Source of the DNA: Thermoplasmata archaeon
GTDB taxonomy: Archaea > Thermoplasmatota > Thermoplasmata > Lutacidiplasmatales > UBA184
Reading direction: 5' to 3'
Length of the DNA stretch: 64,000 bases
Assembly: GCA_022750195.1 (NCBI GenBank)
Contig: JAKIWE010000001.1
Span: 1-64,000, forward strand
The notes beneath the pieces were generated by a model. That model had not been told where the DNA came from. It saw only the letters and a list, made by a program, of their open reading frames with translations, and made no database searches. The position numbers and the translations under genes are program-made. Shown one piece after another: positions 2,098-57,491 of the stretch (the first letter of the stretch is position 1; every line of letters begins with the position of its first letter).

Positions 2098-5000
2098 GTG
2101 AACGGCCGGCTCCGCCTCGGCGTCGGGGTCCTCGTCGCGGTGACGATGGTCACCAGCCTCTGGGTCGGGTTGTCGACAGCCGCGCTCACCCCGGGCTCCC
2201 CTGCGGCACCGACCCCCTCGCACGGCCTTCACGGGCTCCTTCCAGCGGCGGCTACGCTCCCGAAGATCGTTCACCCCCTCGTGCCGTGTCCGCCGCCGCC
2301 GAACATCGTCTACCCGGCGTACGCCAAGGTAGGCAACGGTTGGCCGCTCCAGCCGGATTTCGGGAGCCAGGGGAACTGCGCCCCCCTCGGCGACGACCAG
2401 GTCCACTCGACGTTCTTCTCGAACGTGGCGGGCTCTGGCACCCGCTTCACGATCCCCGTCTATCTGCCGGCCCTCGGGAGCCAGGGCCAGCCCTGCAACT
2501 ACCTCGACATCAACCTCGGCATCGTGGTCGGCGGCGACGGCGTCAGCGTGGGCGGCCAGTCGTACGCTGAGATCACCTTCTCGCCGAACGCCGCGTGCCA
2601 GAACCAGACCACGAACAGCCTCACCTACAGCGAGAACGCGATGGTCTGGGGGATGTTCAACGCGTCCAAGATGTGGCCGGTCACGGCGGCGACGTTCGCC
2701 TGCCCCAACGGCGGCCAAAGCTTCACCCGCGACGACTCCTACTACTGCGAACAGAACGAGATCTCCAGCGGCGCTGGCGCGGCGCTCGGCAGCAACCTCC
2801 CCTCCGCCACGTGGTACAACCTTACGTTCGTCGGGGGCGTAGGACCGTCGAACCCGCTGGGGTTCTTTGAGAACACCACCGCGGGCTCGAGCTACAGCTA
2901 CAGCTATACTTTCAACGCGGCGAACACCGGCAACCACACCTACTACCCGTACTTCCACTCCTCCTGCCTGGACGCCTGCGTGCTCAACTGGTCGACCTCC
3001 TTCGGGCTCGGGGTCGGGGCCAACCTGTGCGCCGCGTTCAATCCGACCTCAGCGCCGGCGTGCAACTCCTACAACCAGTACAACTGGGAGAGCGGCCCGC
3101 CAGTCGCCTGGGGCGTGCCGCACTTCTGGACGGGGACCGACTGGCGCGGCGACTACCACACGTTTGCGCCGGAGTCGACCTCCGGGGTCTGCAACGCCTT
3201 CGCGGCGGCCGGCACCGTGGCGCCGTGCTTCAACGCCGACTTCTCCGGCGGCACGGGCTACTACCCGACCTTCACCTTCAACGGCAGCTCCCTGGACTTC
3301 GGTACCGCCTGGCCGTGGACGACCGAGGACTTCGGCGGGGCGATCAAGGAGTACTTGTCGACCACCGCCCAGAAGGACTTCGTTCCGCTCTGGATCGATC
3401 AGCTGAGCAATTCGAGCCGGGGGGGCTTTGTTCCCCCCAACGGCGGCTTCAATGTGAGCACCCGGGTCCAGGACCTGGGGAACGTGAGCTCCGTGAGCCT
3501 CTACTACGAGCTTCCCGGGAGCGGCTGGACGAGCGAACCGATGGCGCGCCTGAGCGGCGACGGGACCTCCGGCTTCTACAATGCCTCGGTCCCCGGGACC
3601 GGGGGGAACGGCCTCATCCACTACTACGTGGGCGCGACCAACAACGCGAGCGCCACGGTGTTCCTCGGACACAACGAGACGATCTCCCGCGGACCGCTCC
3701 CCCATTTCAGCGTCCTACTGAAGACGAACCCGGGCTACTGCGGCAACATCCGGTTCAACGGCACGCTCGAGCGGAACAACACGACGCTCTCGGTGCTGCC
3801 CGGTACTTACCCGATCACGGGGGCGCCGTGCTGGCCGTACATCTTCTTCAACTGGAGCCGCACGGGCGGCGTCACCGTCAACGCCTTCACCGCGATCGCC
3901 CAAGGGCTGGTCACCTCGAACGGGACGCTCCAGTCGATCTTCGAGTACGTTCGCCCTACCGACAATGTCACCGTCGAGACCTCCCCCAGTTTCTGCGGGA
4001 CGGTCAACATCAACGGGGGGTTCTACACCAACGGCGCGGTGGTTCCGCTCCTCGACAACCTGCCCTACTTCCTCGGGTTGACCGCCGGGTGCGGTAGCTA
4101 CTCGTTCGCCGGCTGGGGGATCCAGGGGAACTTCACCGTACTAGGGCGCAGCCTGACGCCCCACGGCAACGGGACGATCATCGCCACGTTCATCTCCACG
4201 TCGTCGGCCGTGAACGTACTGTTCCAAACCTCGCCGTCGAACTGCGGGGGGATCCTCTACAACAACTCCGGCTACACGAACGGGGAGTCGCTGAACTTCA
4301 CCCTCGGCAGCTTCGCGATCTCTCCCGACCCGTGCGCCCACTACGGTTTCCTGGAGTGGAACGTCACCGGGGGCGTCAGCGTCACCGGCACCTCGATGAC
4401 CGTGAGCGGGGTCGGCTCCCTCCGGGAGATCTACTACCACCTGACCGAGGTGACGCTCGCGACCAACCCGGCGTTCTGCGGCCATACGACGTTCGACGGC
4501 GCGAACTACCGGAACGGGAGCGTCGTCGTCGTGCAGAACAACTCCACGCACATCATCGGTGCGGCGAGCTGTCCGGGGTACTACTTCTTCGGTTGGAACA
4601 CGACCCCCGGCCTCAGTGCGGCCGGCAGCGTCCTGACGGTGAACAACTCCGGGATCCTGACGGCCGTGGACATCAACGGGAACAACTCGGTGTTCGTCGG
4701 CTTCATCACCGACCCGCCGTTCTGTGGGTCGATCAACTTCGGCTCGAGCACCTTCGTGAACGCGAACTACACCCGCGAAGTCCCCGGCGCCGTCGTCCCG
4801 ATCTCACCGAAGACCTGCACGAACTACGGCTTCGTCACCTGGGTCACGACCGGCGGCATCACGATCGTCGGCTCCAACGCCTACGTCAACACCTCCGGGT
4901 CGATCACGGCGGTGTTCCGCCCCCTCGCCCAGGTCTTCCTCTACACGGACCCCGCCGCCTGCGGTTCGATCGACCTCGGCGGAAAGGTCTACGGCAACAA

Positions 5001-51039: not shown

Positions 51040-52038
51040 TCAGATCACGAGAGGCTCGTGCTCCGCCAGCCGCCACGGGCGCAAGCCGCCGACGACGGCG
51101 GTCATCCGGACAACGTCGCGTCGCTCCGGATGCATCCGCGTGCCGAACAACAGCCGCCGGGGTTCGCCGAGGCGCCCGCGAAGGGTCCGGAGCACTCGGT
51201 CGAGGGTCCGGAGCGTCAAGTTGGAGCCGCCGTCGAGGTGGACGAGCGCACTCGGTGCCTCGGCCAGCTCGAAATCCAGCAGCGTTTCGGCGAGCGCTTG
51301 GTGGACCAGGTGCTCGGGTTCGGAAATGTGATGCTCGCTGCGCAGCAACGTCGAGACGCCCGACTCCCGCAGATGGGACTTCAGGCTCGCGAGGTCGACG
51401 TTGAGCTGGGAGGGGCTCTCGACCATGTCGACGAGGCTGCTCACCAGGCTGTGCAGGTAGGTGCTCCGTAAGTGGAAGATCCGCGGGAGGGGGAGCGTTT
51501 CGTACCGGCGGAGCTTCTCGTTCGAAAGCACCAGCAGCAGGCCGCCGAGCGCTTCGAGCTCGGCGAGCGTCGCCACGACGTTCTCCCGTCGCTCCGGATT
51601 GGTCTCGAGCTCGACCTGGAACGGCAAGAAAGCGACCGGAACCGCGACCGTCTCGGTGGGGCGGAGCAGAGAGGTGAAGAACGGGAGCAGCGCGCTGCCC
51701 GTCCCTCCCCCGAGCCCAGCGAGAAGGAAGACGATCTCGAAGTTCGCAAGGCGCCGACCGAGCTCCTCCTGGCTCTCGGTCGCGGCCTCGAGGACCCGCG
51801 AGCGGTTCCCCCCGCTTCCGGCCCCGCGGAGCTGGCGCTGGCCGAGGAGGATCCGCTCCTCGGTCCTTACCTGGGCGAGATGGCGAGCGTCTGTGTTGAC
51901 GGCGAACGTGCGCACGTTAGGGAGCCCGAGGCCCGCGAGGTCGTGCACCGCGTCGCTGCCCGCCCCCCCGAGTCCGACGACAGCGAAGGTCGAGGGGCGA
52001 GCGAGGTCGTCGAACCGCTCGTCCGGCAGCGAGGCCAT
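51040..52038 (-). CDS. ftsZ: FtsZ/tubulin-family GTPase
   Basis: A 332-residue filament-forming GTPase for cell division or shape. It shows the T1 loop GLGGAGSDAV (about 22-31), T3 NTDARHL (48-54), the tubulin signature GGGTGS (110-115), the ribose/base segment ETNPERRENVV and the T7 synergy loop NVDLASLK (Asp215). These suggest an active GTPase. It is shorter at the C-terminus than classical FtsZ and lacks an obvious tail peptide. The sequence is divergent, so FtsZ paralogue, CetZ or a third type cannot be told apart by eye. It is cotranscribed with the upstream ribbon-helix-helix gene, 17 bases away, an arrangement like haloarchaeal cdrS-ftsZ. Confidence 0.88.
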   Translation of the reverse strand: MASLPDERFDDLARPSTFAVVGLGGAGSDAVHDLAGLGLPNVRTFAVNTDARHLAQVRTEERILLGQRQLRGAGSGGNRSRVLEAATESQEELGRRLANFEIVFLLAGLGGGTGSALLPFFTSLLRPTETVAVPVAFLPFQVELETNPERRENVVATLAELEALGGLLLVLSNEKLRRYETLPLPRIFHLRSTYLHSLVSSLVDMVESPSQLNVDLASLKSHLRESGVSTLLRSEHHISEPEHLVHQALAETLLDFELAEAPSALVHLDGGSNLTLRTLDRVLRTLRGRLGEPRRLLFGTRMHPERRDVVRMTAVVGGLRPWRLAEHEPLVI

Positions 52039-52055
52039 GGCTTACTCCGGGCGGC

Positions 52056-52418
52056 TCACGGGGTGGTCGAGCCGTCGCCCGCAGTGACCGAGACCGGGTC
52101 GCGTCGTGCGCGCGTAGCTCCGAGGTTCTCGAAACGAAGTCGAATGTACTCGCGGACCGCCGAGCGGACGGCGTCGTCGACGCTCACCGAGCCCCCTTCG
52201 CGAACGAACTCCTCGAGCTGGCGGTTGTCCTGGCGGGAGAGGTCGACCACCACTTTCCGGATGTTCGGGGGCGGGAGGTTCATGTCGACGAACCGCTCGA
52301 GCGCCTCGCGGATGGAATCCGAGATCGTCGGGGTTCCTTTCGATTGCTGGATCAGCTTCAGCTTCTCGAGGAGATCTTGCGGGATCCGGACGGTCACCCG
52401 CTCCGACGTGTCGCCCAT
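52056..52418 (-). CDS. tandem ribbon-helix-helix regulator upstream of ftsZ (CdrS-like)
   Basis: A 120-residue DNA-binding protein with two ribbon-helix-helix units in one chain: unit 1 at about 7-45 (ERVTVRIPQDLLEKLKLI ... SDSIREALERFV) and unit 2 at about 53-95 (IRKVVVDLS ... SVDDAVRSAVREYI). RHH proteins normally dimerise with one unit each, so this chain may fold as a single-chain pseudo-dimer. A short RHH regulator precedes ftsZ2 in haloarchaea (CdrS) and controls division genes; by position this looks like a counterpart. A perfect 11-bp inverted repeat in its own promoter is a likely operator. Confidence 0.85.
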   Translation of the reverse strand: MGDTSERVTVRIPQDLLEKLKLIQQSKGTPTISDSIREALERFVDMNLPPPNIRKVVVDLSRQDNRQLEEFVREGGSVSVDDAVRSAVREYIRLRFENLGATRARRDPVSVTAGDGSTTP

Positions 52419-52421
52419 TGC

Positions 52422-52454
52422 ATGTCAGACAAGCTCCCTTGTTTTGTCTGACAT
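52422..52454 (-). promoter_or_regulatory. candidate operator: 11-bp inverted repeat before the RHH-ftsZ operon
   Basis: ATGTCAGACAA (52422-52432) and TTGTCTGACAT (52444-52454) are perfect inverse copies with an 11-base spacer. Arm centres are 22 bases apart, about two helical turns. It lies between the ATG (52418) and the TATA-like box at 52457-52466, over the expected transcription start. The remaining stretch up to 52715 holds a second AT-rich spot (CATAATACTT, 52477-52486) but no convincing gene. Confidence 0.65.
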
Positions 52455-52456
52455 TT

Positions 52457-52466
52457 GGCATATGCG
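52457..52466 (-). promoter_or_regulatory. TATA-like element for the RHH-ftsZ operon
   Basis: The plus strand reads GGCATATGCG. It is centred about 43 bases before the ATG and borders the inverted repeat. Confidence 0.4.
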
Positions 52467-52715
52467 ACACGAGGCTCATAATACTTGCCGAGTCGGGGTT
52501 ACGCTCTGAAGTCCCACCATCAGTTCCGCCTTCTGCGGAGCTGCTGGATTATTTCCGCCCTCATTGCCGCGAGCGGGGCGCGGGTAGGCGAGCTCGTCCC
52601 AGAACGCCGTCCCGATCAACGTTCCACCGGGGTCTGTCGGCGTTGGCGCGACCCGGCCCCGGACGCTCCCCGAGCGGCATCGGGCGTGCCACGCGTCCAC
52701 GAGTAACGACGGACC

Positions 52716-54257: not shown

Positions 54258-57200
54258 ATGGTCCATTCGCTCCCATGTGACACTTCAGTTGGAATGCCGC
54301 CGGCCGTTCGGCGCCGAGCACGACCTTCCTCGTTCGATCTGATCCCCCGCCGTCGTCCCCGGTCGCTCCGACCGGTGCACTCTTCAGACCCTCCAGGCGA
54401 GGGTCGCCGCGACCCCCGGGCCCGACTGCATCCGACGCCGACCTTGCCGTTTTCTTCTGACCCTCCCCTTCTCACGTTGCAAGCGATTCGAGCGACCCCA
54501 ACGACACGCCGACGACCGTGGACACGACGAGAGATGATCGCCCCGCTCCTCGCGGTGGGAGTCCTAGCCTTCCTCGTGGTGGGCGGGATGCCCCTGAGCC
54601 AAGCGGCCGGAACCGCGCGCACCGACCGGAACGCCCTCGCCCAGGGCGCTGCCGCGCTGGCCGCCGCGACCGAGTCGCTGGCTCGCGGACTCGGCCCTGC
54701 GAGCGCGACGACGAGCCACTGCACGCTGAACGGACTTCTCGCTGGCGCCTGCGTGTCTACCTCGACCATCGCGAACTGGACGAACCTGACGCCGAACTCC
54801 CCCTCTCCGAGGTACGGAGCCGCCGGCGCGTACGACGCCTGGGACCACTCCTACGTCCTCTTCGGTGGCGACACGAAGTACGAGCTCGGCACCTACCTCC
54901 AGGACACCTGGAAGTTCTCGGCCGGCGCCTGGACACCGATCGCCACCGCGAAGATGCCGTCGCCGCGCGGTGGGGCGAGCCTCGTGTACGATCCCACCGA
55001 CCACTACGTGCTGCTGTTCGGCGGCTGCTTCTCGACCTCGCGCCTCATGGCCTGCACGACCGCGAGCTCGGACACGTGGAAATTCTCCGGGGGGACCTGG
55101 ACCGAGCTGTACCCCGCACTCTCGCCGCCGGGCCGCGGCTACGCGGCGATGACGTGGGACGCCGCGGACGGCTACATGGTGCTGTTCGGCGGCCGAAGCC
55201 CGACCGGCTACTACAACGACACCTGGACCTACCTCTCCGGCAAGTGGGCCGAGATCGACCCGACGAATGTCCCGAACGGTCGCGACAATGCCGGTCTCGT
55301 CTACGACACCTCCGACGGCTACACGCTGCTCTACGGCGGAGGAACGGCGAGCGGTTTCAACGACGCCTGGGAGTTCGCCAAGGGGCAGTGGACCTACCTC
55401 AACCGCGGGCCGGTCGAGGGGAACGGAGCGAGCGTCGCCTACGATCCGCTCGACGGCTACGTGCTCGTGTTCGGCGGCTACAAGGGCGCGCTGTTCGACC
55501 TCACGTACACCTACCACGCGGGCGTATGGACCCGGCTCAGCCCGACCGAGTTTCCGGCGGCCCGCCAGTTGGGCACCCTCGGTTACGACGCCGCGGACGG
55601 CTACATGGTGCTGTTCGGCGGCGCCAACCCGTCCGGCTGTTCGGATACTTGGAAGTTCACCGCCGGCCAGTGGTCCAACATCTACCCCCTCACCGCGCCC
55701 CCGGGCCGGACCCTGGCCCCGATCACCTACGACGCCCGGGACGGCTACGTACTGATGTTCGGCGGGGCGCGCGGGAGCATCACCGGCTGGGGCCAGGGGA
55801 CGTTCCACGACACCTGGAGCTTCGCCGGGGGCAACTGGCAGCCCGTGAACGTCGCGACCTCCCCCCCGAGCCGCTCCGGCGAGGCGTTGGCCTACGACCC
55901 GACCGACGGCTACGTCGTGCTGTTCGGCGGGCTCGGACCGAAAGCGGCTCTGGGGGACACGTGGACCTACCAGGCCGGCACCTGGACGCAGCTGAGCCCG
56001 GCCCACAGCCCTTCGGCACGCTCGAACGCTAGCTTCACCCTCGACGCGAGGTCGGGCCACCTGATCCTCTTCGGCGGGCTGTCGACCGGGTACCTCGGGG
56101 ACACCTGGAGCTTTTCGGGCGGCAGCTGGACGAAGATCGCCACGGGCTCGCACCCGTCCGCACGGTACGGCGCCGGGATGGCATACGACGCGAGCGACCG
56201 GTATGTCCTTCTGTTCGGAGGCTACAACGGAAGCTACCTTGGCGACACCTGGAAGTTCACCGGTACGAACTGGGTGGCGATCTCGACGAGCTACGACCCG
56301 CCGGCCCTCTTCCTGCCCCAGATGGTCTACGACCCGAACGACGGGTACCTGATCCTCTACGGCGGGTTCGTCGGCGGCTGGGGCGGTTACGTCCAGTCGA
56401 CCTGGGAGTTCGCAGGCGGACTGTGGAGCTACCTGCACGCAGGGATCGCCCCGTCGGCCCGGTACGGGGCCGGGATCACGTTCGACGCGGGGGACGGCTA
56501 CCTGCTCCTGTTCGGCGGCTACGACGGCTACTGGACCGACGACACCTGGAAGTTCACGGGGGGTGTCTGGCAGCAGATCCTGCCGTCGGCGATCCCGGTC
56601 GTCGGAGCCGGCGCCTCGGCCGCGTTCGACACGAAGGACGGCTACACCGTCCTGACCGGTGGCTTCGGGCTGTACGACACCGCCGCGACCTGGAAGTGGC
56701 TCAACGGAAGCTGGACGTCGCTGCGTCCGTCGGTCGCACCGGAGGCCCGCGAGGGCGCGAGCCTCACCTACGATGCGGTCGACGGCTACGTGGTCCTGTT
56801 CGGCGGGTACAACGGAACGTACCTGGGCGACACCTGGACCTTCGCGGGCGGCGTCTGGACCCAGCTCAACCCCGCCAAATCCCCCTCGGCCCGCTGGCAG
56901 GCAGGTTTCACGTACGACGCGAAGGACGCAACGACCGTGCTGTTCGGCGGCTGGAACGGCGGACCGCTGGGCGACACTTGGGAGTTCAAAGCCGGGCACT
57001 GGACGCAACTCACTCCCGCGAAGAGCCCTGCGAAGCGATCCGCGCTCGACCTCTCCTACGACGCCGGCGGAGGGTACGTGCTCCTGTTCGGAGGCGTCAC
57101 CTGCACGCTCCTCTGCCTGACGACCACCTACCTGCACGACACCTGGACGTTCGTCGGCGGGAACTGGACGGCGGTCACGAGCCCCACCATGCCCACCGCC

Positions 57201-57491
57201 CGGAGCGGGGCGATGTTCGCCTTCGTTCCCGGCAGCAGCAGCGCGGTGTTGTTCGGCGGCTACGGTTGCACCGGACCGCTCTGCCTGGTCAAGGGCTACC
57301 TCGGCGATACGTGGGAGTTCACGAACGGCGCTTGGACGAAGCTCGCTCCGAACCCGACGCCTATCCCCCGGGCGAGCGCAGCGTTCGCGCCCCTCGGCGG
57401 CGGAGGGCACTACCTCCTCTACGGCGGCATGGGCTGCAAGAGCAGCGGTTGCGTGCTCGCCCACCTGGTGCTCGACTACTGGCGGTTCTGA
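54258..57491 (+). CDS. secreted Kelch-repeat surface protein, about 18 units
   Basis: A long beta-propeller protein. About 18 Kelch-like units of 45-60 residues run from about residue 170 to the end, each with the pattern P.AR.GA...YD..DGY.(V/L)LFGG, then (G/N)DTW.F..G.W. The last unit is cut short at LDYWRF. A signal or anchor helix lies at about 94-112 (IAPLLAVGVLAFLVVGG). The N-terminal 90 residues are Arg/Pro-rich, so translation may begin at the TTG 54477 or the ATG 54534 rather than 54258. Unlike the other giant surface proteins it has no C-terminal membrane helix, so it is either released or held by its N-terminal helix. Eighteen units could fold as two or three propellers. Ligand unknown. 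Confidence 0.85.
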   Translation: MVHSLPCDTSVGMPPAVRRRARPSSFDLIPRRRPRSLRPVHSSDPPGEGRRDPRARLHPTPTLPFSSDPPLLTLQAIRATPTTRRRPWTRREMIAPLLAVGVLAFLVVGGMPLSQAAGTARTDRNALAQGAAALAAATESLARGLGPASATTSHCTLNGLLAGACVSTSTIANWTNLTPNSPSPRYGAAGAYDAWDHSYVLFGGDTKYELGTYLQDTWKFSAGAWTPIATAKMPSPRGGASLVYDPTDHYVLLFGGCFSTSRLMACTTASSDTWKFSGGTWTELYPALSPPGRGYAAMTWDAADGYMVLFGGRSPTGYYNDTWTYLSGKWAEIDPTNVPNGRDNAGLVYDTSDGYTLLYGGGTASGFNDAWEFAKGQWTYLNRGPVEGNGASVAYDPLDGYVLVFGGYKGALFDLTYTYHAGVWTRLSPTEFPAARQLGTLGYDAADGYMVLFGGANPSGCSDTWKFTAGQWSNIYPLTAPPGRTLAPITYDARDGYVLMFGGARGSITGWGQGTFHDTWSFAGGNWQPVNVATSPPSRSGEALAYDPTDGYVVLFGGLGPKAALGDTWTYQAGTWTQLSPAHSPSARSNASFTLDARSGHLILFGGLSTGYLGDTWSFSGGSWTKIATGSHPSARYGAGMAYDASDRYVLLFGGYNGSYLGDTWKFTGTNWVAISTSYDPPALFLPQMVYDPNDGYLILYGGFVGGWGGYVQSTWEFAGGLWSYLHAGIAPSARYGAGITFDAGDGYLLLFGGYDGYWTDDTWKFTGGVWQQILPSAIPVVGAGASAAFDTKDGYTVLTGGFGLYDTAATWKWLNGSWTSLRPSVAPEAREGASLTYDAVDGYVVLFGGYNGTYLGDTWTFAGGVWTQLNPAKSPSARWQAGFTYDAKDATTVLFGGWNGGPLGDTWEFKAGHWTQLTPAKSPAKRSALDLSYDAGGGYVLLFGGVTCTLLCLTTTYLHDTWTFVGGNWTAVTSPTMPTARSGAMFAFVPGSSSAVLFGGYGCTGPLCLVKGYLGDTWEFTNGAWTKLAPNPTPIPRASAAFAPLGGGGHYLLYGGMGCKSSGCVLAHLVLDYWRF

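Follow-up and report, generated by a model that had tools for sequence, protein, structure and literature searches.

The analysed window comprises 64,000 nucleotides of contig JAKIWE010000001.1 from a Thermoplasmata archaeon. Closely related sequences were found in Thermoplasmata MAGs, of which one bears the name Candidatus Lutacidiplasma, and the relatives are Lutacidiplasmatales-type Thermoplasmata. On the minus strand, an open reading frame (52056..52418) encodes a CdrS-like tandem ribbon-helix-helix (RHH) regulator of 120 amino acids, which was recognized from the ORF list, Pfam, NCBIfam, relatives and AlphaFold predictions. Its stop codon is followed after 17 nt by the ATG of a presumably co-transcribed 332-aa FtsZ-family protein (51040..52038, minus strand; Pfam and TIGR00065). 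The initial annotation had likened this gene order to that of the haloarchaeal cdrS gene, and the order was confirmed from the ORFs and Pfam matches. In Halobacterium salinarum and Haloferax volcanii, the RHH gene of the CdrS-FtsZ2 system is located directly before ftsZ and affects division; the CdrS ChIP sites include the ftsZ1 promoter, the binding motif is symmetric, and the locus is reported to be widespread in archaea (PMC7439475, PMC8406309). CdrS itself consists of one RHH in 55-61 aa (PMC7439475, PMC8406309).

The Pfam RHH_1 profile matched the 120-aa ORF (2.1e-9, 37.5 bits, cut-off 20.5) in two stretches, and a profile built from relatives of the protein resembled NikR in unit 1 and ParD-type RHH proteins in unit 2. 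Unit 1 comprises residues 7-46 (52281..52400, minus strand; Pfam, the relatives' profile and AlphaFold helices at 14-27 and 32-47). Its strand residues R7, T9 and R11, which occupy the strand positions by which RHH proteins read DNA, showed no variation across 25 aligned relatives. Unit 2 comprises residues 54-100 (52119..52259, minus strand), with a ParD-type RHH at profile positions 52-97 and AlphaFold helices at 62-73 and 80-104. The strand of unit 2 is less conserved than that of unit 1 and reads K-V-V-V-D in this protein and K-x-T-x-E/D among class relatives. Two AlphaFold monomer runs placed four helices where they are expected for two RHH units. The two complete units described in the initial annotation were thus recovered by Pfam, by the NikR and ParD profile matches and by structure prediction, which also models the second unit as an RHH. 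Local confidence of the models was good, global confidence was poor (pTM 0.38 and 0.45) with an uncertain relative placement of the units, and both ribbons were left unpaired in both runs. A Foldseek search against the PDB gave no match with E < 0.1; the plausible hits were partial matches to single-RHH proteins (NikR, ParD), which are uninformative on the chain arrangement. The NCBIfam model for the haloarchaeal CdrS equivalog (NF058555) also matched two stretches of the protein with 28.6 bits, below its cut-off of 100. In a broad sense, the ORF has the CdrS traits of an RHH_1 domain and a same-strand position directly upstream of ftsZ, but with 120 aa and two units it is not a small single-domain protein of about 55-61 aa.

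An ftsZ homolog adjoins the tandem-RHH gene in most of the genus and class loci examined. Families of this class have retained the fused protein; its gene mostly adjoins ftsZ and mostly has the promoter boxes described below. The proteins of other classes of the phylum mostly have a single RHH of ~75-90 aa or match the tandem form less well. In one family (f19; L219, L221-L226, L230), fused RHH proteins occur without an ftsZ neighbor and without boxes at their own gene.

Analysis of the linked FtsZ-family protein verified the Tubulin (1e-23) and FtsZ_C (1.7e-11) domains, both passing their Pfam cut-offs, and the FtsZ equivalog model TIGR00065 gave 178.3 bits, below its cut-off of 295.2. The glycine-rich loops for GTP binding are present (T1 GLGGAGS; T4 GGGTGSA, with GGGTGS/T being canonical). 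The T7 loop of FtsZ, NxDxxD, is needed for GTP hydrolysis. In the linked protein, sequence comparison identified this loop as NVDLASL (51382..51402, minus strand), in which serine replaces the second catalytic acid. This acid is missing from the linked FtsZ of all genus members and of one further family member (L210), while the complete NxDxxD motif is kept by the RHH-linked FtsZ of most other families and by both paralogs in these genomes. The linked FtsZ lineage is found on a long branch. As judged from its T7 loop, the protein probably lacks the ability to stimulate hydrolysis of GTP, and it may serve as a partner subunit. Elsewhere in the window (54258-57491), an ORF of 1077 aa contains numerous kelch-like repeats (DGYVVLFGG); its product is probably a secreted or surface protein.

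The sequence ATGTCAGACAA-N11-TTGTCTGACAT upstream of the RHH gene (52422-52454) occurs only once in the 2.45-Mb assembly, in which its reversed control has 0 matches. It had been described as an 11-bp inverted repeat between the TATA box and the ATG. The repeat is exact and lies at this place, but it is not one plain inverted repeat, as each arm is itself a near-palindromic box of the type TGTC-N-GACA (GTC-A-GAC and GTC-T-GAC) and the two boxes are 22 bp apart. Putative operator box 1 (TGTCAGACA, 52445..52453, minus strand; core GTCAGAC, 52446-52452) is located at -34 from the ATG and putative operator box 2 (TGTCTGACA, 52423..52431, minus strand; core GTCTGAC, 52424-52430) at -12, with its centre 22 bp from box 1; both were delimited by sequence and genus alignment. 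A TATA-like element (GTATTATG, 52477..52484, minus strand), detected by simple scoring and weak in this genome, precedes the core of the first box by 32 bp. One helical turn (11 bp) upstream of box 1, the sequence ATATGCC (52457..52463, minus strand) can be read as a possible degenerate box. The genus consensus at this site, ATATG(T/C)CAA (alignment positions -11 to -3), is conserved, and together with box 1 it matches the layout of a strong box, N4 and a weak box that is found at ftsZ1 and smc.

Both boxes were detected in all 58 distinct genus-level promoters at approximately -33 and -11 from the ATG (within 1 nt), with a spacing of 22 bp, or 21 bp in a few. No promoter positions are better conserved than the GTC and GAC halves: the triplets flanking the centre are invariant or nearly so, and most other positions carry ~0.0-0.5 bit. 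The central bases of the two boxes are A/T in 41 sequences, T/T in seven, A/G in four and T/A in two, with G/C, A/C, T/G and G/G also present. This leaves the arms non-complementary at the centre in 14 of the 58 promoters, one of which could form a G-U pair. The box flanks are asymmetric within the genus (YGTCWGACAAA). In most genus genomes, the pattern GTCNGAC-N15-GTCNGAC occurs about once, at the RHH-ftsZ promoter, with genus controls of 0; some extra, chance-like matches were seen in G+C-rich contigs, and the control was non-zero in one class genome only. By these counts, the conservation of the paired boxes is far in excess of chance. The distance from TATA to box has a median of 30 bp both within the genus and across the class families (12 of 16 within 28-34 bp in the latter), and the distance from box to ATG in class relatives ranges from 10 to 75 nt. 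As the first distance is nearly constant and the second is free, the boxes are tied to the initiation of transcription and not to translation. Box spacings among class relatives are mostly 21-22 bp, with 33, 12 and 11 bp also occurring, and are usually multiples of about 11 bp. Some class members have one box only or none, and family f19 and part of family f8 have no box at their own tandem-RHH promoter. In other classes, TTGTCNGACAA-like boxes also occur at several ftsZ-adjacent genes for single-RHH proteins (L234-L236, L240, L241). Because of this distribution, and not from a tree of the RHH protein, the box appears to be older than the RHH fusion.

On the chromosome of this organism, the W-centred pattern TTGTC[AT]GAC is present at the RHH-ftsZ promoter (both boxes) and at only three more places: directly before the second ftsZ (L134), ~50 bp before smc (L136; SMC_N 5.3e-31) and overlapping the TATA element at L166 (G000:C11:124739). 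Each of the three is accompanied by a weaker box at a distance of one turn. The search for the arm upstream of other division genes, which the initial annotation had proposed, thereby located the box before an ftsZ1-like gene and smc. For the second ftsZ (MKSIIQEAIAKHQ type, ftsZ1-like), GTATGAC-N4-GTCTGACAAA is conserved between TATA and ATG, and the box follows TATA at a median of 38 bp in the 20 loci measured. Before smc, TGAC-N4-GTCNGACAA lies 31-41 bp after TATA (median 35 bp) in 17 loci and the genome itself (18 genomes). The pattern TTGTCNGACNNNNGTCA yielded 52 matches in 37 genus genomes, 27 of which have the ftsZ1-type letters, and the reversed control gave 0 throughout. In 12 loci of a third ftsZ (MRPLA type), the interval from TATA to ATG is free of the box, which makes this gene an internal negative control. 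No TTGTCNGAC site was found near sepF in the genome of this organism. In two distant families (L092, L093) the double box precedes another ftsZ, and in G051 a composite box is situated in the region shared by smc and a membrane-protein gene (L194).

Several box-bearing sites were found at other genes. In distant class members (L152, L153, L154, L194, L198), a composite box lies just before the gene for a membrane protein of ~280-335 aa with a motif like WLPIFGPMIAGYxxGRRAG, and the single member scanned had no Pfam match. A further conserved site, TTTATGTATGAC-N4-GTCNGACAA, with a weak box overlapping TATA, is present at L166, L182, L183 and L188. At L094 (G060:C8), two triple arrays of boxes with 11-bp phasing (3001-3029 and 3102-3130) lie between seemingly convergent genes and away from any obvious promoter.

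The remaining W-centred matches are found on C50 (G000; L101, L102), a 22-kb contig of the same assembly that was assigned to this organism by binning. On C50, GTCNGAC is paired seven times with a spacing of exactly 11 or 22 bp (10/32, 3070/3092/3103, 3351/3373, 9410/9421, 13113/13124 and 20476/20498), whereas shuffled sequences averaged 0.04 such pairs and never had more than two. The contig is virus- or plasmid-like, with a weak DNA_pol_B_2 match below the cut-off, and no RHH of the tandem-RHH family was found among its encoded proteins. The viral-contig relatives of its polymerase (33-34% identity) show no phased boxes, so box use is not a general trait of this polymerase lineage. It is possible that C50 makes use of the host division operator. 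Another element-like contig (L103; G004:C167) has boxes at 2608/2641/2663, 33 and 22 bp apart, and carries serine-recombinase-like and ATPase-like ORFs as judged by eye.

RHH fusions are known from other systems. AvtR of Acidianus filamentous virus 6 has two RHH motifs per chain, binds as a monomeric pseudo-dimer, represses its own gene and is thought to oligomerize along DNA (PMC5569661). It shares the presence of two RHH motifs in one chain and the archaeal setting with the protein described here, but it is viral, recognizes an unrelated target motif and has no tie to division. In the F-plasmid TraY protein, the RHH dimer fold is contained within a single polypeptide, whereas the TraY protein of R1 has a single motif and dimerizes (PMC12117103). 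The same kind of fusion event produced F TraY and the tandem-RHH protein, although TraY is a relaxosome component and not a division regulator. The aCcr1 protein of Sulfolobales has a single RHH, and its host organism divides without FtsZ. As cited in PMC12284271, this RHH protein represses cell-cycle genes, among them segAB for chromosome segregation. To the extent of that citation, action of an RHH protein on chromosome-segregation genes is shared with the system proposed here. As single-chain RHH pseudo-dimers (AvtR, PMC5569661; F TraY, PMC12117103) are already known, the design is not as distinct as first suggested. CdrS-FtsZ loci are known as well. A tandem-RHH variant of CdrS, its operator and the link to smc were not found in the literature searched.

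How the two units are arranged on the DNA can be explained in different ways. RHH folds require a partner ribbon, and two chains could supply it by pairing unit 1 with 1' and unit 2 with 2', which would create a covalent Arc-like tetramer that spans a strong box together with a weak site at a distance of one turn. This arrangement has close to an even chance of being correct; it agrees with the symmetric core box, the invariant strand of unit 1 and variable strand of unit 2, the strong box, N4 and weak box at ftsZ1 and smc, the conservation of ATATG(T/C)C a helical turn away from box 1 and the unpaired ribbons of the AlphaFold monomers, even though the weak site is degenerate. The pseudo-dimer put forward in the initial annotation, with unit 1 pairing with unit 2, one chain per arm and two chains on one DNA face, is a tenable reading to which we give somewhat less than even odds. 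AvtR and F TraY work in this way, the 22-bp spacing suits two units on the same DNA face, and an asymmetric reader might prefer the asymmetric box flanks of the genus. However, the core GTC-N-GAC is symmetric while the strands of the two units differ (R-T-R versus K-T/V-E/D), and the same box precedes single-RHH relatives, which must dimerize. Both units are predicted, but the two low-pTM monomer runs, with their unpaired ribbons, neither support an intramolecular ribbon nor exclude it. The suggestion that one chain reads two half-sites found no support in this form, as each arm is its own box, the centres vary independently (14 of 58) and other promoters combine a strong box with a degenerate one 11 bp off.

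It is rather unlikely that the box is owned by another transcription factor and that the RHH protein is merely one of its targets. Some tandem-RHH genes without a box at their own promoter would fit such a factor, but the box accompanies RHH-ftsZ promoters in different classes and irrespective of RHH size, RHH regulators commonly have an operator at their own gene, as with AvtR, and haloarchaeal CdrS likewise targets ftsZ1. A leader RNA hairpin that controls translation of the operon, whose arms could pair as RNA between the likely start site and the ATG, is very improbable and was set aside for the absence of covariation of the central bases; the 14 non-complementary centres (one possibly G-U) favor two near-palindromic protein boxes over one RNA stem, spacing changes by helical steps (22, 33, 12) with a free distance to the ATG in class relatives, and ftsZ1 and smc have one strong and one degenerate box.

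We consider it probable that the tandem-RHH protein is a lineage-specific variant of CdrS with its own regulon, which it probably represses and which includes its own gene. The box, its phasing, promoter position and conservation, the shared targets and the two RHH units are observed in the sequences; we infer that the RHH protein binds the box and represses, with cell-cycle coupling as the output. The protein would bind copies of TGTC-N-GACA phased by ~11 bp just downstream of TATA, at or near the transcription start of the RHH-ftsZ operon, the second ftsZ and smc. Protein bound over the start site would block initiation, the regulator would thereby limit its own level, and the supply of FtsZ and SMC would rise and fall together. 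Repression and autoregulation are likely, as read from the position of the boxes, which closely follow TATA at or near the presumed start of transcription. The regulatory link drawn in the initial annotation is retained as a tandem-RHH, CdrS-like regulator and ftsZ under a conserved two-box operator; the operator and its proposed regulon are well supported by sequence, and the RHH protein as the binder and the sign of the regulation are presumed.

Like CdrS, this regulator is encoded by a small RHH gene directly before ftsZ. It differs from CdrS in that two RHH units are fused, the boxes follow TATA, smc is a putative target and the linked FtsZ has a degenerate T7 loop. In H. volcanii, CdrS binds mostly 41-110 nt before the transcription start, and silencing of cdrS lowers ftsZ1, which CdrS thus seems to activate (PMC7439475, PMC8406309). 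In contrast to these upstream sites, the boxes described here are positioned at or near the presumed start and point to repression. A more far-reaching scenario is doubtful: a fused-RHH master regulator of the cell cycle would coordinate two FtsZ genes and SMC via helically phased TGTCNGACA boxes, the linked FtsZ would have turned into a regulatory subunit that does not hydrolyse GTP, and an extrachromosomal element would carry a copy of the host's operator so as to keep its own genes in step with the host cycle.

The switching of division genes in archaea beyond haloarchaea and Sulfolobales is poorly known. The analysis provides a concrete operator word and a target set (two ftsZ genes and smc) that can be read in many genomes of uncultured soil archaea. 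In addition, the single and fused RHH proteins associated with the same box form a natural series, and a mobile element may be using a division operator of its host. One box shared by smc and two ftsZ genes suggests a joint control of segregation and division, in which FtsZ and chromosome handling may be directly co-regulated by a CdrS-type protein.
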